A stretch of DNA of 35,916 nucleotides from NCBI GenBank assembly GCA_001803465.1, contig MHDE01000007.1, positions 7,445 through 43,360 of the forward strand. The letters are read 5' to 3'. Positions 11,279 through 19,598 of the stretch are shown here, piece after piece. Within the stretch, counting starts at the first letter, position 1. Every line of letters begins with the position of its first letter. The notes below the pieces were generated by a model, which saw only the letters and a program-made list of their open reading frames with translations, was not told the origin of the DNA and made no database searches. The DNA comes from Microgenomates group bacterium RIFCSPHIGHO2_01_FULL_45_11 (lineage in GTDB: Bacteria; Patescibacteriota; Microgenomatia; UBA1400; 2-01-FULL-45-11). Position numbers and translations under genes: made by a program.

Positions 11279-11851
11279 ATGATTTTGGCGGATAAGGATC
11301 TTAAGAAAGCGTTGCGGCAAAAGCGGATTATTTTTAGGCCGACTCTTGACCTAAAAACGCAGCTTGGTTCCTGCTCAGTTGACTTGAGGCTAGGAACGTC
11401 GTTTAGCGTCTTCAAACACAGCCGCTTTCCTTATATTGACCCGCATGATCCGAAGCTCTCCAGTGATATGATGGAGAGTTTAACAGTGGCTGTCGGTGAC
11501 AAATTTATCCTGCAGCCTGGTGATTTTGTGTTGGCGGTATCGATTGAGTCGTTCAAACTACCCAACAATTTACTGGCTCGGATTGAAGGTCGCTCCAGTT
11601 TGGGAAGATTGGGAATTGTGGTGCATTCGACGGCATCGATTTTTGAGCCGGGATGGGAGGGGGTAGCGGTCATGGAACTGGGGAATATGGGTAGGATGCC
11701 GGTGGCTTTGTACCCGGGCATGCGGATTGCGGCGCTAACTTTTGAAGAATTGAGTTCACCGGCAGAGGTACCGTATTCGAAGAAGAGGGGAGCTAAGTAC
11801 CTGAAACAAAAAACGCCCACCGCGAGCAAAATTGCTGAAGAGTCGAGCTAG
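11279..11851 (+). CDS. dcd: dCTP deaminase
   Basis: ARIEGRSSLGRLGIVVHSTASIFEPGWEG motif and overall length. Confidence 0.93.
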   Translation: MILADKDLKKALRQKRIIFRPTLDLKTQLGSCSVDLRLGTSFSVFKHSRFPYIDPHDPKLSSDMMESLTVAVGDKFILQPGDFVLAVSIESFKLPNNLLARIEGRSSLGRLGIVVHSTASIFEPGWEGVAVMELGNMGRMPVALYPGMRIAALTFEELSSPAEVPYSKKRGAKYLKQKTPTASKIAEESS

Positions 11852-11855
11852 TTGG

Positions 11856-11884
11856 TTGCACGAGTTGCTTTTTTTTGCTAAACT
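11856..11884 (+). promoter_or_regulatory. Promoter of the thrS-cluster leader
   Basis: TTGCAC - 17 nt - TAAACT. Confidence 0.6.
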
Positions 11885-11890
11885 AAAATT

Positions 11891-12049
11891 CTAATCCCAC
11901 TATTGATCTGGCTTACCATCCAGGGAAGCGGGCGGACTGGGACGAACCCAGAGAACGAAGTTGTCCCGATATTACATCGGGGAAATGGGGTGGAACCATC
12001 CCGATATCAATTGGGGTCCCCATGGCTAGAAGTGGCCATGGGTTTTTTT
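11891..12049 (+). promoter_or_regulatory. T-box-like riboswitch leader with antiterminator/terminator
   Basis: GGTGGAACC core; antiterminator ATGGGG[TGGAACC]ATCCC...GGGGT-CCCCAT; competing terminator CCCATGGC/GCCATGGG + T7; thrS downstream. Confidence 0.7.
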
Positions 12050-12064
12050 AGTAAAAAGGACATT

Positions 12065-12394
12065 ATGAATGACCAATCGGCTGAAAAGACTGTTAATCAA
12101 AGTGTGGTTAAGGAAGAGAGGATGGGAGAGACGAAGACCGTGTACAACGCCTCGGGTGGGGAAGTGTTTTGGAAGAACTTCTTGGCTGGTTTTGGCCGAG
12201 CTTTAGGAAGTGTTTTCGTGTATTTGCTTTTTCTGGGATTAATCGTTTATCTATTCACCAATTACCTGTTTCCCCAGATTAAACCATGGCTTGATCAGTA
12301 CGCCAAAGCCATTGAGGTTTTGACTCAGCAAAAAGGCGGGCAGTCCGGTAATCAACAAGAATTACAACAAATGATGGAGAAATTATATCGATAG
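12065..12394 (+). CDS. Small single-TM membrane protein of unknown function
   Basis: MNDQSAEK...GSVFVYLLFLGLIVYLFTNYLF; ATG downstream of the terminator preferred over 11903. Confidence 0.7.
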   Translation: MNDQSAEKTVNQSVVKEERMGETKTVYNASGGEVFWKNFLAGFGRALGSVFVYLLFLGLIVYLFTNYLFPQIKPWLDQYAKAIEVLTQQKGGQSGNQQELQQMMEKLYR

Positions 12395-12462
12395 CAGTTG
12401 ATTTGGCCTGGCAAGGAAGTTCCTTGCAAGGATGTTCCTTACAGGGATGGACCTGGTAAGAT

Positions 12463-14232
12463 ATGAAGCTTGATAACCAAGAACAACTTGAGGCATTGCG
12501 GCATTCAACTGCTCATTTATTGGCGGCGGCGGTGATGGAGTTGTGGCCCAAGGCTAAACGGACGATTGGGCCGGCGATTGAGGACGGCTTTTATTACGAC
12601 TTTGATTTCGCCGGGTACAAGTCTCCCCCGGGTGAAGCTGACTTTCCTAAGATTGAGGCTAAGATGCGGGAGTTGGTCAAAGATTGGAAAGACTTTAAAA
12701 GGGAAGAATTAACGATATCAGAAGCAAAGGCCCGGTATCCTGGTAACTCTTTTAAGCATGAACTGATTGAGGAATTTTCCGAAGGCGGAAAGAAAAAATT
12801 GAGTTTTTACACCTCGGGGAACTATTCTGATCTCTGCAAGGGCGGACATATTTCCGAACCCAGCAAGAAACTCAAATATTTCAAATTGCTGTCTGTCGCC
12901 GGCGCCTACTGGCGAGGTGATGAGACGAAGCCGGTCTTAACCAGAATTTACGGCACAGCTTGGTTTAGCCAAAAAGAGTTGGATGAGTACATTCGGCGGC
13001 GGGAGGAAGCCAAGAAACGCGATCATCGGAAACTTGGTAAGGAATTGGGACTTTTCTTAATTAGCGAAGATGTGGGACCGGGGCTTATCTTGTGGCAACC
13101 GAAAGGTAATATCATCAAAGAAGAACTGGAGAATTGGGCGAAACAGGCTGAAAAGTCTTGGGGGTATCAGCGAGTAACGACGCCGAATATTACTAAAGCG
13201 GGGCTTTACTACACTTCCGGCCATTTGCCGTATTACCAAAAGGATATGTACCCGCCGATGAAGTTAGATGACGGCGAAGAATATTTTTTGAAACCGATGA
13301 ATTGTCCGCATCATCATCAGATTTATAAGGCAAAGCCACGAAGTTATCGAGAGCTGCCGCTAAGACTGGCTGAATTTGGCACCTGCTATCGCTACGAAAG
13401 TTCAGGCGAGCTGTTTGGACTAATGCGGGTTAGAGGCTTTACCCAAAACGACTCCCATATTTACTGTACTAAAGAACAAGCAGTGGACGAATTTGTGGCG
13501 GTGATGAAGCTTCATGAATACTATTACCGGACGCTTGGCATCAACGAATATCATTTGGAGTTGGCTCTCCGCGATCCTAAAGACAGTGGGAAGTATCATG
13601 GGGATGACAAAATGTGGGCATTGGCAGAGAAATTGATGCGTCAAGCTGCAAGCAAAGTGGACATTCCTATGGTGGAGTCAATAGGCAATGCGGCTTTTTA
13701 CGGTCCAAAAATCGATTTTATTATTCACTCGTCCATCGGCCGGGAGTTTGCCATTTCGACAAACCAGATTGATTTGTATATGGGACAACGATTTAAGCTC
13801 ACCTACACTGATAGAGACGGTTCAGAGAAAACGCCGGTCATTATTCACCGGGCTCCCTTGGGTTCTCACGAACGGTTCATTGGGTTTTTGATTGAGCATT
13901 TTGGTGGAGCCTTTCCGACTTGGCTCACCCCTGTTCAGGTAAAAGTGCTGCCGGTAACCGACCGTCAGTTAGCTTACGCTAAGTTGGTAACCAAGCAATT
14001 AGACGAGGCAAATGTCCGAGCGGAAGTCGACGAGGGCAACGAAACTCTGTCGGCAAAGATTCGCGATGCCCAACTAGAAAAGGTTGCTTATATGCTCATT
14101 GTCGGCGACAAAGAAGAAAAAGAAAAGACAGTTACCGAACGGAGGAGAAGCGGCAAGGATTTTGGGGCACAACCACTGAAAAAGTTTATAGAGAGTATTA
14201 GAAAAGAGATTGAGGAAAAGACAATCAATTAG
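12463..14232 (+). CDS. thrS: Threonyl-tRNA synthetase without N-terminal TGS domain
   Basis: LRHSTAHLLA, FLKPMNCPHHHQIYK, EFGTCYRYE, RGFTQNDSHIYC class II aaRS motifs. Confidence 0.96.
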   Translation: MKLDNQEQLEALRHSTAHLLAAAVMELWPKAKRTIGPAIEDGFYYDFDFAGYKSPPGEADFPKIEAKMRELVKDWKDFKREELTISEAKARYPGNSFKHELIEEFSEGGKKKLSFYTSGNYSDLCKGGHISEPSKKLKYFKLLSVAGAYWRGDETKPVLTRIYGTAWFSQKELDEYIRRREEAKKRDHRKLGKELGLFLISEDVGPGLILWQPKGNIIKEELENWAKQAEKSWGYQRVTTPNITKAGLYYTSGHLPYYQKDMYPPMKLDDGEEYFLKPMNCPHHHQIYKAKPRSYRELPLRLAEFGTCYRYESSGELFGLMRVRGFTQNDSHIYCTKEQAVDEFVAVMKLHEYYYRTLGINEYHLELALRDPKDSGKYHGDDKMWALAEKLMRQAASKVDIPMVESIGNAAFYGPKIDFIIHSSIGREFAISTNQIDLYMGQRFKLTYTDRDGSEKTPVIIHRAPLGSHERFIGFLIEHFGGAFPTWLTPVQVKVLPVTDRQLAYAKLVTKQLDEANVRAEVDEGNETLSAKIRDAQLEKVAYMLIVGDKEEKEKTVTERRRSGKDFGAQPLKKFIESIRKEIEEKTIN

Positions 14233-14261
14233 AAATTTATAAATGTATCCTTGATGGCTAA

Positions 14262-14290
14262 TTGCGCAAATAAGGATCGTATAGTACAAT
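14262..14290 (+). promoter_or_regulatory. Promoter candidate for infC
   Basis: TTGCGC - 17 nt - TACAAT. Confidence 0.45.
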
Positions 14291-14308
14291 TTACCCTGGA
14301 GGAGTACC

Positions 14309-14821
14309 ATTAGTCGCCCGTTTTATCAATTAAACCAGCACATTAAAGCGGAAACGCTGCGAGTAGTGGACGAAGAGGCGGGCCAAATTGGAGTCATGTC
14401 CAAAATGGAAGCGTTGAATCTGGCCCACGAAAAAGAGGCAGACTTAATTTTAGTGGCCCCGAACGCCAATCCACCAGTCGCCAAAATCATCATCTTTGCC
14501 AAGTTTAAGTACCAACAGCAGCAGAAAGAAGCCAGCGGCAGGAAAAAGGCCAAAGCGGTGGACATTAAAGAAATTCGGTTCACGCCATTTATTGCCGAAG
14601 GTGATTATAATCAGCGAATTAAACGGGTACGACAATTTTTAGAGGATGGCGACAAAGTGAGACTGACGGTAAAATTTGTCGGCCGGCAAATTACGAGGAA
14701 AGACTTTGGAGATAAGTTGTTAAATAAGGCTGTAAGCGAATTGTCGGATATAGCCACGGTGGAATTTCCGCACCGGTTGATGGGTAAACTATTGTATACC
14801 CAGTTACAGAGAAAGAAGTAG
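14309..14821 (+). CDS. infC: Translation initiation factor IF-3, AUU start codon
   Basis: GGAGGA then ATT; in-frame SRPFYQLNQHIKAETLRVVDEEAGQIGVMS restores the IF-3 N-domain missing from the ATG-based ORF at 14366. Confidence 0.9.
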   Translation: MSRPFYQLNQHIKAETLRVVDEEAGQIGVMSKMEALNLAHEKEADLILVAPNANPPVAKIIIFAKFKYQQQQKEASGRKKAKAVDIKEIRFTPFIAEGDYNQRIKRVRQFLEDGDKVRLTVKFVGRQITRKDFGDKLLNKAVSELSDIATVEFPHRLMGKLLYTQLQRKK

Positions 14822-14862
14822 AACATAGAGCTGAGAGCATGAAGAGTGAGTGAAGGAAACGT

Positions 14863-15057
14863 ATGCCGAAGGTTAAGACCAGAAAAATTGTGGCCAAGCG
14901 GTTTAAAATTACCAAGACCGGTAAAATTTTACGCCGGGCTCAGAATATGCGCCATTTGCGGCGGAGAAAGTCTAAGCGGCAAATTCGCGCTTACCGGGTG
15001 CCGAAGCAAGTAACGGGAAAAATGGCCAAAAAAATACGAACGATGTTGGGAAGGTAG
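14863..15057 (+). CDS. rpmI: 50S ribosomal protein L35
   Basis: MPKVKTRKIVAKRFKITKTGKI...AQNMRHL. Confidence 0.95.
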   Translation: MPKVKTRKIVAKRFKITKTGKILRRAQNMRHLRRRKSKRQIRAYRVPKQVTGKMAKKIRTMLGR

Positions 15058-15296
15058 TGAGCAATAAACGCCGTTTTAACCGTTTGTTTAACCAAACTGC
15101 CAGAGCTTTGAAAGCAGTCAGGGCGGCACAGGTTTTTGGCAGATTGAATCGGTTGATGCCTTATACCTTACCTGTCGATAATTTTTTTCGAAGGCATATT
15201 AATAAAATTAGACAAAAAGATTGGTTGAAAAGGAGTAAACCATGGCCAGAGTCAAAACCGGGCCCAGCCGGAGGCGACACCATAAAAAAGTCTTAG
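15057..15296 (+). CDS. Hypothetical basic protein between L35 and L20
   Basis: GTG start overlapping the rpmI stop; 79 codons; 55-bp overlap with rplT. Confidence 0.4.
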
Positions 15297-15601
15297 CTAG
15301 AACGGCCGGCATGCGCATGTCGAAGGGCCGGCTGTATAAGGTAAGTCGGGAGGCAGACCTTCACGCTGGGCAGTATGCCTATATTGGTAGAAGACTGAGA
15401 AAACGCGATATGAGGAGGTTATGGATACTTAGAATTAATGCGGCTCTCAAAAGCTATAAGTTAGAGATAACCTATTCTCGTCTTATCCCGCTACTAAAAA
15501 AAGCAAAGATAGAACTGGACAGAAAAATTTTGGCAGAGTTGGCGGTAACTGATCCGGATACTTTCAAGGCTGTGGTTGACAAAGCAAAGGGCTCTCAATA
15601 A
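15242..15601 (+). CDS. rplT: 50S ribosomal protein L20
   Basis: [33 protein letters not shown]. Confidence 0.96.
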
Positions 15602-15602
15602 A

Positions 15603-15659
15603 ATGCAAGTAATGACTAGTTTAATCGCCTTCACCGCTTTCTTTTTTAGCCTCGGCTAA
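15603..15659 (+). CDS. Phe-rich leader peptide (pheM-like), MQVMTSLIAFTAFFFSLG
   Basis: 18-codon ORF with four Phe codons (TTC ACC GCT TTC TTT TTT), at the E. coli pheM position. Confidence 0.75.
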   Translation: MQVMTSLIAFTAFFFSLG

Positions 15660-15711
15660 AGGGGAGCGGTCAGGTGGCGTTTTTGACAAGCTCCCCAAGG
15701 GGGCTTTTTTT
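15630..15711 (+). promoter_or_regulatory. Ribosome-mediated transcription attenuator upstream of pheST
   Basis: 1:2 ACCGCT(15633-15638)/AGCGGT(15665-15670); 2:3 GGGGAGC(15661-15667)/GCTCCCC(15690-15696); 3:4 AAGCTCCC-CAA-GGGGGCTT + T tract. Confidence 0.75.
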
Positions 15712-15769
15712 ATTGGAAAAATTACTCACAATTGCCGCCAGCTTAAAACTTAAGTAGACTAGAAGAACG

Positions 15770-16792
15770 ATGCAAGAACAAATAAACAATCTTAAAAACG
15801 AAGCCATTGCGCTTATTACCCAGGCAGGTTCAGCCAACGAGCTCGAGGAATTGCGCCGGACGTATCTCGGGCGAAAAGGCAAAATTAATGAATTTGTCAA
15901 ACTCATGGCCGAAGCAACGGGTACAGAGCGGGCACAACTCGGCAAGTCAATTAACGAAACCAAGCAGGTTATCGTTCAAGCACTTACTGACCAGGCAGAA
16001 AATTACCGCCAGCAAACAGCGTGGCTGGATGTGACTCAGCCAGGGAAATTGCCACCGATGGGGCATTTGCATCCGATAACCCAAGCGATTGAGGAAATCA
16101 CCAGGATTTTTGAAGGGATTGGCTTTACGCGTGTCAGATACCCGGAAATTGATTACGACTGGTATGTCTTTACCGCGCTTAATATGCCGCCCAAGCACCC
16201 GGCGCGGGATGAATGGGAAACGTTCTTCATTGACGCCTCTTCCCATCCTAGTAAAGGCGAGTTGGTATTAACGACGCATACCAGTAACGGCCAAGTGCGA
16301 GAAATGGAACGGGTTAAGATACCTCCGATTAGAATGCTTAATATTGGTAAATGCTATAGGCGGCAACAGGATGTGACCCACACGGCTATGTTTCACCAAT
16401 TTGAAGGTTTGGTGATCGATTCGGGAATCACTATCCAACATTTGAAAGGGACGCTCAACTATTTCGCCAGGAAGTTTTACGGACCGCAAGCTAAATCTCG
16501 AATTAGGCCGTTTATGTTTAAGTTTACTGAACCAAGTTTTGAAGTTGATTTCTCCTGTGTCCACTGCAACGGTGAAGGCTGCAGATTTTGCAAGTCCGGT
16601 TGGCACGAAGTCGGTGGAGCCGGAATGGTACACCCTAATGTTTTGAAAGCGGGCGGGATTGACCCGGAAAAATATACAGGCTTTGCCTTTGGTTGGGGGG
16701 TGGAGCGGGTTTATACCCTAAAGCCAGGATTACACCTTGATGATATTAGACCTTTATATAGCACCAATTTGGAATTCCTTGAACAATTTTAA
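15770..16792 (+). CDS. pheS: Phenylalanyl-tRNA synthetase alpha subunit
   Basis: HPITQAIEEITRIFEGIGF, HTSNGQVREM, FEVDFSCVHCNGEGCRFCKSGWHEV, GFAFGWGVERV. Confidence 0.96.
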   Translation: MQEQINNLKNEAIALITQAGSANELEELRRTYLGRKGKINEFVKLMAEATGTERAQLGKSINETKQVIVQALTDQAENYRQQTAWLDVTQPGKLPPMGHLHPITQAIEEITRIFEGIGFTRVRYPEIDYDWYVFTALNMPPKHPARDEWETFFIDASSHPSKGELVLTTHTSNGQVREMERVKIPPIRMLNIGKCYRRQQDVTHTAMFHQFEGLVIDSGITIQHLKGTLNYFARKFYGPQAKSRIRPFMFKFTEPSFEVDFSCVHCNGEGCRFCKSGWHEVGGAGMVHPNVLKAGGIDPEKYTGFAFGWGVERVYTLKPGLHLDDIRPLYSTNLEFLEQF

Positions 16793-16805
16793 AAATTGAA
16801 AATTT

Positions 16806-18860
16806 ATGAACATTTTAATACCCCACCGTTGGTTGTTGGAACACTTGAAGACCTCCGTTTTGCCCCAAAAAATCCAGGAGTATTTATCTTTGTGCGGGCC
16901 GAGTGTGGAACGGTTGAGTAAGGTTGACGGTGATTGGATCTATGACATTGAGGTAACCACTAATCGGGTAGACATGATGAGTGTGATCGGTATTGCCCGA
17001 GAGGCGGCGGCGATTTTGCCAGAGTTTGGTGTCAAAGCTGAACTGGTTCCGCTGACTTTGCCACCGATAGCTAGTTACAAATCACTGGACATAAAAATCA
17101 TCAATAATCCTCAACTGTGTCAGCGGATTTTGGCAATCAAACTAGGAGGGGTAAAAATTGGACCGTCGCCAGAATGGCTACAAAAACGTCTCATCCAAGT
17201 GGGACAACGGCCACTCAACAACGTCATCGACATTACTAACTACGTGATGTGGGAAGTGGGGCATCCAGTGCACGTGTTTGATTATGACCGGTTGACTAAA
17301 AAAACGATTGCCGTTCGTGAAGCTAAAAAGGGTGAACGACTGAAAACCTTGGATGATAAAGTTCACCGACTTGTCGGTGGGGAAGTAGTGTTTGATGACG
17401 GTACAGGAACAATCATTGATTTGCCGGGAATTATGGGGACGGCCAACACGGTGGTGACTGATAAAACAACCAATATCCTACTGTGGATTGAATCGATTGA
17501 CCCGGTTAAGATTCGACAAGCGTCCATGACACTTGCGATTCGGTCACAAGCAGCGGTACTCAATGAAAAACAGGTAGATCCGGAGTTGGGACTGATGGCG
17601 GTGTTACGAGTTGTCGAACTGTGCCAAAAGCTAACCCAAGCCAAGGTGGCTAGTAAACTGGTGGATATTTACCCGGTCAAACCAGTTATTAAGCCAATTA
17701 CCTTAACCGATGAACGATTGACCACGTATTTAGGCCTTCGAGTTGAACCAGAGAGAGTAAAAGGGATTTTGGAAAGGTTGGGGTGCCAAATTCAAGTTAA
17801 AAATGAAAATTTAAAAGTTAAAAATAATAAAAAAGGCGGGGATGAGGAAACTATCAATTATGAGGTGGTGCCGCCGACCTGGAGGGCAAGAGACCTAACC
17901 ATTCCTGAAGATCTGATTGAGGAAGTGGCCAGAATTTACGGCTATCATAATTTCCCCAGTTCCGTCATGGCAACAACGATTCCAGATGCGCCGTCGGAAG
18001 AAAACTTTCGCTTGGAGTACCAAATAAAACAGTGGCTAACGGGCTGGGGATTTACTGAAATCTATACCTATTCCATGGTAGCCAAGGATTTGGTTTTGGC
18101 GTCAGGATATCCTCTGGCCTCACACTTAAAAATCAAGAACCCGTTGTCCGACGAGTGGGTTTATATGCGTCGGTCTTTGGTACCGTCGATCATGGCCGTC
18201 GTTGAAAGTAACCAGCGTGATATGATTCGGGTCTTTGAAATGCAAAATGTTTTTCACCCGGCAGGAAAACGGTCCGAACTACCGAATGAGGAATTACAAT
18301 TAGTGGTAGCGACTACGACGAGTTATCAGGAGTTGAAGGGTGTGGTTGATGGGTTGATGACTAAGTTGTTTTTGGCTAATGAACTTTACGTAGTGCCTAC
18401 TAACGTTGATCAGGATGGTTTTGGCGTGGGGCAGACCGGAGAGATAGTGGTCGGGAAAAAACGGCTAGGAGTAATGGGACAATTGAAGGCAAAGAAAATG
18501 TGGGTGGCGAAAATTTTGATGAGGGAGTTAATGGCTTTGGCCAGAACGCACCCCCGGTATATTCCGATTAAAACCACGCCACCGATTAGGGAAGACTTGA
18601 CGTTTCAGGTTCCAGATAAAACCTACCTTGGTAACTTGCTCCTTACTGTTGCTAAGACGAGTAAACTGGTGGAGACAGCGATTATTTCTAAGCGTTATAA
18701 ACCACCAACGGCAACCGATTCTACCAATATTACTTTGACTCTGACTTACCGTGACCCCAAGAAATCGCTGACTGATAAAGAACTAATGCCGGTTCGGAAA
18801 AAGATTGCGACCTCCTTAGCGCAACTGTATTCAGCTCAACTGGTTGGTTTACTGGAGTAA
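16806..18860 (+). CDS. pheT: Phenylalanyl-tRNA synthetase beta subunit, no N-terminal EMAP/tRNA-binding domain
   Basis: NVIDITNYVMWEVGHPVHVFD, IPEDLIEEVARIYGYHNFP; C-terminal FDX-ACB-like region. Confidence 0.95.
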   Translation: MNILIPHRWLLEHLKTSVLPQKIQEYLSLCGPSVERLSKVDGDWIYDIEVTTNRVDMMSVIGIAREAAAILPEFGVKAELVPLTLPPIASYKSLDIKIINNPQLCQRILAIKLGGVKIGPSPEWLQKRLIQVGQRPLNNVIDITNYVMWEVGHPVHVFDYDRLTKKTIAVREAKKGERLKTLDDKVHRLVGGEVVFDDGTGTIIDLPGIMGTANTVVTDKTTNILLWIESIDPVKIRQASMTLAIRSQAAVLNEKQVDPELGLMAVLRVVELCQKLTQAKVASKLVDIYPVKPVIKPITLTDERLTTYLGLRVEPERVKGILERLGCQIQVKNENLKVKNNKKGGDEETINYEVVPPTWRARDLTIPEDLIEEVARIYGYHNFPSSVMATTIPDAPSEENFRLEYQIKQWLTGWGFTEIYTYSMVAKDLVLASGYPLASHLKIKNPLSDEWVYMRRSLVPSIMAVVESNQRDMIRVFEMQNVFHPAGKRSELPNEELQLVVATTTSYQELKGVVDGLMTKLFLANELYVVPTNVDQDGFGVGQTGEIVVGKKRLGVMGQLKAKKMWVAKILMRELMALARTHPRYIPIKTTPPIREDLTFQVPDKTYLGNLLLTVAKTSKLVETAIISKRYKPPTATDSTNITLTLTYRDPKKSLTDKELMPVRKKIATSLAQLYSAQLVGLLE

Positions 18861-18930
18861 AAGTAGCGACTCTTCCCGAGGTTGTCTCAAGTGTTAACCC
18901 CCGGGGTTGGAGGAGATAATGGGAAACAAC

Positions 18931-19149
18931 TTATATCACTTCTCCTGTGCTTAACAGGACCCTGATTTTTACTCCTGATCCAGTTTCTAATTCTACTATC
19001 GAGCGCCAAAAATCTAACTTTTCAACAATTCTATCAGCTTCGTCAGGAGGGATCTGATACCAGTCGGTTATTTCCTTAGCGGAAAGAAAGCTGTTCTTTA
19101 CAACATCTCTAGCAATAGCCGCAATAACTCGTTCGCTTAATCTTTCCAT
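18931..19149 (-). CDS. Small hypothetical protein, possible winged-helix
   Basis: MERLSERVIAAIARDVVKNSFLSAKEITDWYQIPPDEADRIVEKLDFW. Confidence 0.5.
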   Translation of the reverse strand: MERLSERVIAAIARDVVKNSFLSAKEITDWYQIPPDEADRIVEKLDFWRSIVELETGSGVKIRVLLSTGEVI

Positions 19150-19289
19150 TCTCAACCTCGTCGGTGGCAAGACGCTGCCAGAGATTAATAAACTGCTGTC
19201 ACTTTAGACCAGTATCAATTCCGAGGTGACTACCTAACACCACCTCCGAAGTGGTGAGGAGGTCCGAGGTGTTGATAGGTGGTGACGAG

Positions 19290-19598
19290 CTAGCCTTCGG
19301 CGAGAAGTACGTATCCTAAAAAAGGAAAGACGTCTTGATTTAATGTCCCCAACATCTCTTCTCCACCATACCAAGTTCCGATACATAATGTGTCCGGAGA
19401 AGCTGTCCGTAAGCAGGGAGCAAGAGAACTGACTCCTGCTGCCAATACTGGAGGGTTGTCTCCGCCGCCTTGAATGATGGCCACTCTTCCACCACTGCTA
19501 AAGTAAGTTGTTTCGTCAACAGCACCATGACCACTTAGACATTGACGACATTGACTGGTGTCAAGCAGGGGAATTAATGGTAACTGTTTCTCAGTCAT
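19290..19598 (-). CDS. Hypothetical protein
   Basis: 102-aa ORF, immediately downstream of the next minus-strand ORF. Confidence 0.5.
   Translation of the reverse strand: MTEKQLPLIPLLDTSQCRQCLSGHGAVDETTYFSSGGRVAIIQGGGDNPPVLAAGVSSLAPCLRTASPDTLCIGTWYGGEEMLGTLNQDVFPFLGYVLLAEG

Follow-up and report, generated by a model that had tools for sequence, protein, structure and literature searches.

A T-box-type leader with an ultrashort Stem I upstream of thrS in a Microgenomates-type Patescibacterium

The thrS locus and its surroundings

The leader described here lies in a DNA stretch of 35,916 nucleotides (the window, to which all coordinates refer) from a Microgenomates-type Patescibacterium with a 1.08-Mb genome in 38 contigs. 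It spans 11895–12049 and is located between the dCTP deaminase gene, which ends at 11851, and a small open reading frame (ORF) that precedes thrS. From Stem I to the end of the antiterminator, it measures about 130 nt. The small ORF (12065–12394, + strand) is the first putative regulated gene and encodes a membrane protein-like product, 109 aa long and containing a hydrophobic stretch. An NCBIfam search with this product gave no match; the ORF also adjoins thrS in several relatives (L178, L190, and L192). The second putative regulated gene is thrS (12463–14232, + strand), which encodes threonine–tRNA ligase (TIGR00418, 659.5 bits versus a cut-off of 383.65). On the same strand, thrS is followed by infC, rplT, pheS, and pheT. 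Hence, contrary to the preliminary description of this DNA, thrS is not the only synthetase gene downstream of the leader.

Two observations concern the downstream genes. infC (14309) apparently starts with ATT after GGAGGAG; the start codon of E. coli infC is AUU. Upstream of pheS (15770), the region 15576–15715 contains a promoter-like TTGACA-17-TAAAAT sequence, a short Phe-rich ORF (15612–15659, MTSLIAFTAFFFSLG*), pairable GGGGAGC/GCTCCCC segments, and a terminator (GCTCCCCAAGGGGGC followed by T7). The sequence of this region resembles an attenuator for pheST that works through a Phe leader peptide, and pheS appears to be under its own attenuator despite its same-strand position after thrS.

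The promoter that had been proposed for the leader is present as a sequence: TTGCAC (11856–11861) and TAAACT (11879–11884) are separated by a spacer of 17 nt, with the extended −10 element TGCTAAACT (11856–11884, + strand). It is weak, however, with about 7/12 consensus matches, and was not listed by the scan. Transcription from this promoter-like site would start just upstream of Stem I.

Anatomy of the leader

Stem I: The preliminary description had not assigned a canonical Stem I. An ultrashort Stem I of 37 nt exists at 11896–11932 (+ strand), a K-turn hairpin that ends in the specifier loop. Its base helix is formed by CCCACU (CCCACT in the DNA, 11896–11901) and AGCGGG (11927–11932), in which A11899 and C11929 are mismatched and unpaired. 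In 15 aligned thrS leaders, all six columns of this helix covary and 85% of the positions are paired. Above it, the bulged strand AUU plus GA (11902–11906) faces a GA partner (11925–11926); we infer a K-turn from the consensus match, and the NNN-GA … GA pattern is present in the thrS leaders of most relatives. The apical hairpin CUGG/CCAG with the loop CUUACCAU (11908–11923) is supported by the sequence, the relatives, and covariation (four covarying pairs, 92% paired in the 15 leaders). An elbow-binding interdigitated T-loop motif, as in a distal Stem I, is absent from the window leader.

Specifier codon: The apical loop displays the Thr codon ACC (11915–11917), followed by A11918. An automatic rule detected the apical hairpin in 35 of 40 non-redundant thrS leaders. 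In these, the loop codon was ACC in 34 and ACU in one, and the next base was A in all 35. The failure of the other five is ascribed to a larger loop. As the covariance models include the codon columns, part of the codon conservation among model matches reflects selection by the models; the seed leaders, by comparison, were collected via ThrRS and the UGGAACC/TGGNACC bulge, and the codon was not used. ACC pairs with the host tRNA-Thr(GGU) through three Watson–Crick pairs. Two Thr codons had been suggested as candidates beforehand. ACC at 11915 is the specifier codon, whereas ACT at 11936 sits in the next hairpin, is not conserved, and was rejected.

Central region: The next hairpin, P2 (11937–11951, + strand), consists of CUGGG/CCCAG with the loop ACGAA. 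P2 is conserved as a hairpin, and its loop is of the C-N-A-A type in most relatives. It is followed by the conserved linker GAACGAAG (11953–11960; GAANNAAG in relatives) and by a Stem III-like hairpin, UCCCGAU/AUCGGGG (11964–11982), which is missing or replaced in most relatives. Apart from P2, no hairpin separates Stem I from the Stem III-like hairpin, and neither an S-turn nor a pseudoknot of the Stem II or IIA/B kind was recognised in the window leader. In relatives, such elements do appear to be present in the leaders of ileS and serS.

Antiterminator: The antiterminator (11985–12023, + strand) comprises helix A1 (ATGGGG 11985–11990/CCCCAT 12018–12023), a 7-nt bulge TGGAACC (UGGAACC in the RNA, 11991–11997), and helix A2 (ATCCC 11998–12002/GGGGT 12013–12017), where the preliminary description had placed them. 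The motif GGTGGAACC covers 11989–11997. UGGA (11991–11994) is the predicted partner of the tRNA 3′ end U73-C-C-A. In the 15 aligned leaders, A1 and A2 are 98% and 93% paired, respectively, with covariation. According to first-order Markov shuffles, a TGGNACC bulge between two such helices is expected by chance 0.05 times per window (both strands), and one was observed.

Terminator: An intrinsic terminator (12019–12049, + strand) follows, with a stem of 10 bp (12019–12028/12033–12042), the loop GAAG, and T7 (12043–12049). It is unusually stable (z = −5.1) and the strongest among seven terminator-like sites in a scan of 11700–19400. The ribosome binding site and the start codon lie past it, at about 12054–12067. 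The 3′ strand of A1 is reused by the terminator, as had been claimed: because 12019–12023 belong to both structures, antiterminator and terminator are mutually exclusive. The evaluated conformers have −41.6 kcal/mol (terminator) and −36.5 kcal/mol (antiterminator), a difference of 5 kcal/mol, and this order is as expected for a default-off switch.

Folding energies: Compared with shuffled sequences, Stem I alone (z = −0.3) and the antiterminator alone (z = −0.5) are of ordinary stability. As neither folds unusually stably by itself, the support for both elements is comparative. In the minimum-free-energy fold of the full leader, the 5′ strand of Stem I (11894–11907) pairs with the antiterminator loop (12006–12017); Stem I must therefore form co-transcriptionally. 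This long-range pairing is specific to the window sequence and was equalled by 40 of 2000 shuffles, so we did not build on it.

Conservation in relatives and match to tRNAs

At the Rfam gathering threshold, no T-box was called in the window. In E-value mode, a search of 601 bases matched RF00230 to the leader with 24.3 bits (E = 0.0022), short of the gathering score of 93 bits, which is a search threshold and not a defining T-box trait. The match extends over the entire model, with deletions in place of most of Stem I, and RF00230 was the sole significant family on the leader. We also made a lineage covariance model from 14 thrS leaders, all from other genomes and none from the window. In this leave-one-out setting, the window leader scored 49.9 bits (E = 7.3e-9), the next-best match in the window 10 bits. 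Against the whole host genome, the leader ranked first (E = 2.2e-7). Another, weak match in the host genome (C18:5374, 24.1 bits) had no visible T-box anatomy and was dropped.

The thrS leaders of relatives were gathered by ThrRS searches and then read for the bulge. A strict regular expression, GTGGNACC, missed half of them; the relaxed TGGAACC recovered these. In the 15 aligned leaders, the loop AC-N-A and the complete UGGAACC bulge are invariant. Across the 21 base pairs tested in Stem I and the antiterminator, 91.9% of the alignment cells were paired, compared with 61.0 ± 1.9% after shuffling. The covariation score was 0.906 versus 0.313 for shuffled alignments, and none of 500 shuffles reached it. 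Changes on both sides were seen in all 21 tested pairs, and when the partners were slid by 1–3 columns, the signal collapsed, with all controls much lower. Within the order, a model that included the window found matches in 39 of 88 genomes (E up to 0.01); within the class, it did so in 93 of 374 (E up to 0.001). thrS lay downstream in 39/39 fetched loci scoring at least 57 bits.

These data bear on whether the leader could be a degenerate T-box that has lost tRNA sensing and retains a partly constitutive terminator. Such a remnant would agree with the small size, the missing distal Stem I, and the score under the Rfam cut-off. Across many families, however, codon, bulge, K-turn, and helices have been kept by compensatory change, and leaders of like or lesser size in relatives are conserved just as well. 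We consider a vestigial element very unlikely.

Not every relative has such a leader. Among named records, the nearest ThrRS sequences are those of Candidatus Collierbacteria (71%), then Gottesmanbacteria, WWE3, and Woesebacteria; in the Collierbacteria relative, the closest by ThrRS (71% identity), thrS has no leader of this kind. In two loci without a T-box (L090 and L076), we noticed by eye Thr-rich leader peptides, MKKFFNYTTTSTTSP and MKNVSLVLTTTTTR, just upstream of thrS, with terminator-like sequences next, before thrS. Their sequences suggest leader-peptide attenuation in place of a T-box. These peptides, like the Phe-rich one at pheS in the window, make it conceivable that a ribosome stalled on Thr codons governs the thrS terminator in the window as well. 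A Thr-rich start-to-stop ORF was not seen within 11891–12040, though, and the T-box elements covary; we give this explanation almost no weight.

The T-box reading makes a prediction for the tRNA, as the A of the UGGA bulge is complementary to U73. The 36 host tRNA genes include three for tRNA-Thr (GGU, UGU, and CGU), and all three carry U73. This is informative because only Gly and Cys tRNAs otherwise have U73 in this host. The preliminary description had recognised a T-box-like riboswitch in front of thrS and had named in advance the absence of a covariance-model hit, of bulge conservation, or of a U discriminator as findings against it. The lineage-model match, the covariation, the invariant bulge, and U73 sustain its view, with none of the three contrary findings obtained.

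The host has two further T-box leaders with fitting discriminators. One precedes the racemase-YbaK-trpS region (L001 1501–1749, − strand). Its bulge is UGGC and its apical loop contains UGG, which matches the host tRNA-Trp with G73. The other precedes an ORF-argS pair (L003 1501–1699, − strand) and has the bulge UGGU, in accordance with A73 in all host tRNA-Arg. In relatives, hairpins curated by eye have an apical codon that fits the downstream synthetase: GGC for glyS, AUC for ileS, CCC for proS, UGG for trpS, and UCC for serS, with AGC in one serS leader (L028). A purine follows the codon with two exceptions (GGC-U in L035 and AUC-C in L066). Some ileS leaders have a UGGA or UGGC bulge. The glyS leaders L029, L031, L034, L035, L042, L043, L049, L051, L057, L058, and L200 are also T-boxes of the ultrashort kind: their apical codon is GGC, their bulge is UGGA, and no Stem II is recognisable in them.

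In E. coli, ThrRS binds the thrS operator, which imitates tRNA-Thr. An operator of this type, by which ThrRS would regulate its own synthesis, would account for the position in front of thrS and for the conserved triplet in a hairpin loop. The loop of the window leader, however, displays the codon ACC and no anticodon (GGU, UGU, or CGU), its UGGA bulge fits U73, and antiterminator and terminator are exclusive. In addition, leaders of like architecture with other codons precede glyS, ileS, serS, proS, and trpS. ThrRS autoregulation is thus extremely unlikely at this locus.

T-boxes are common in the phylum. RF00230 matched in 35 of 53 relatives (eight above the gathering score). In a sample of 380 genomes from across Patescibacteria, 128 (about a third) had matches, 13 of them above the gathering score. 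Many of the matches are short. Full-length, canonical-scoring T-boxes with up to 105 bits occur in several relatives of the same order (L006–L018 region). By eye, some T-boxes in loci of other relatives apparently precede amino-acid biosynthesis genes (TrpB-like and ArgH-like ORFs). In a survey from 2008, essentially all listed T-boxes belonged to Firmicutes and Actinobacteria, and Chloroflexi, Deinococcus, and Proteobacteria contributed few (PMC2494555). Our search for literature on T-boxes in the Candidate Phyla Radiation, Patescibacteria, or Microgenomates, in which subscription papers were incompletely covered, found nothing. The host, which had been called unusual for a T-box, is so relative to the literature found, but not within its own phylum.

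In 24 thrS leaders of relatives, the terminator is arranged differently (L071, L099, L118, L122, L126, L130, L164–L167, L170, L174, L181, L184, L188, L208, L210, L212, L215, L220, L221, L223, L224, and L226). Its 5′ strand precedes the antiterminator, which is thereby enclosed by the terminator stem. The nested terminator strands covary: the mean duplex energy is −9.65 kcal/mol with their own partners and −6.69 kcal/mol with others, and none of 5000 permutations was as low. Most minimum-energy folds of these leaders contain both the antiterminator and the terminator. Pairing of the terminator 3′ strand with the bulge strand was also considered; 3305 of 5000 permutations were as low, and it was discarded as not specific. 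Unlike these relatives, the window leader has the ordinary exclusive arrangement.

Proposed mechanism and relation to known T-box classes

Judged by its sequence, the window leader is a T-box in specifier, UGGN bulge, discriminator match, K-turn, and exclusive terminator. Very probably, it is a transcriptional T-box in which Stem I is ultrashort; by monitoring whether tRNA-Thr is charged, this T-box would regulate the small ORF and thrS. The computed evidence (a conserved structure, the codon and bulge, the fit to the discriminator, and the association with the genes downstream) leads us to infer tRNA binding, amino-acid sensing, and antitermination. During transcription of the leader, Stem I would fold into its K-turn hairpin and present ACC at the apex for pairing with the tRNA-Thr anticodon GGU. 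An uncharged tRNA has a free U73-C-C-A end, which would pair with UGGA in the bulge and stabilize the antiterminator. The A1 3′ strand would then be unavailable to the terminator, and the polymerase would read into the ORF and thrS. With charged tRNA-Thr, the acceptor end would be blocked, the terminator would form, and transcription would stop. The weak promoter, the sub-threshold Rfam score, the missing elbow motif, the lack of a recognisable Stem II, the long-range pairing in the minimum-free-energy fold, and the thrS of the Collierbacteria relative without such a leader are points against the T-box reading.

The unusual aspect is a transcriptional T-box without an elbow-binding distal Stem I and without a recognisable Stem II. 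Transcriptional T-boxes are said to need distal Stem I elbow binding and Stem II for fast tRNA capture, with elbow binding serving to catch the tRNA before the polymerase arrives at the terminator, and short Stem I elements with an apical specifier are associated with translational T-boxes that use Stem II (PMC7583486). A conserved family that dispenses with elbow binding, and apparently with Stem II too, makes the supposed requirement for tRNA capture directly testable. It also provides structural studies and RNA design with tRNA-sensing RNAs of very small size. The leaders extend the range of T-boxes to Patescibacteria, for which our incomplete literature coverage yielded no published account, and would show how reduced, probably host-dependent bacteria sense amino-acid supply.

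Possibly, though we would not call it probable, these leaders form a third, transcriptional T-box class in Patescibacteria, of about 100–130 nt, in which the tRNA would be read via apical codon and acceptor end only and P2 would replace Stem II. In the nested relatives, termination would be prevented by a steric block and not by strand competition; that the tRNA blocks these terminators through a steric or tension effect is our guess.

The window leader fits neither described class. With class I (RF00230; Bacillus glyQS, tyrS type), it shares the UGGN bulge between A1 and A2, the exclusive terminator, the K-turn at the base of Stem I, the purine after the specifier, and the synthetase gene downstream. 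It differs in that Stem I ends at the specifier, which lies in the apical loop, whereas class I uses an internal loop. Further differences are the lack of the elbow-binding double T-loop motif and of a recognisable Stem II, the length of only about 130 nt, and the Patescibacteria host. The glycine T-box (glyQS) is transcriptional and does without Stem II and its pseudoknot. However, the Stem I of glyQS is long and retains the elbow-binding motif that the window leader lacks. Class II (actinobacterial ileS) resembles the window leader in its short Stem I, K-turn, and apical specifier (PMC7583486). In contrast, class II is translational, with an antisequestrator over the ribosome binding site, and uses Stem II, whereas the output of the window leader is an intrinsic terminator and no Stem II is recognisable in it. 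Its specificity is for Thr, and that of its relatives for Gly, Ile, Ser, Pro, and Trp, not for Ile alone as in class II.
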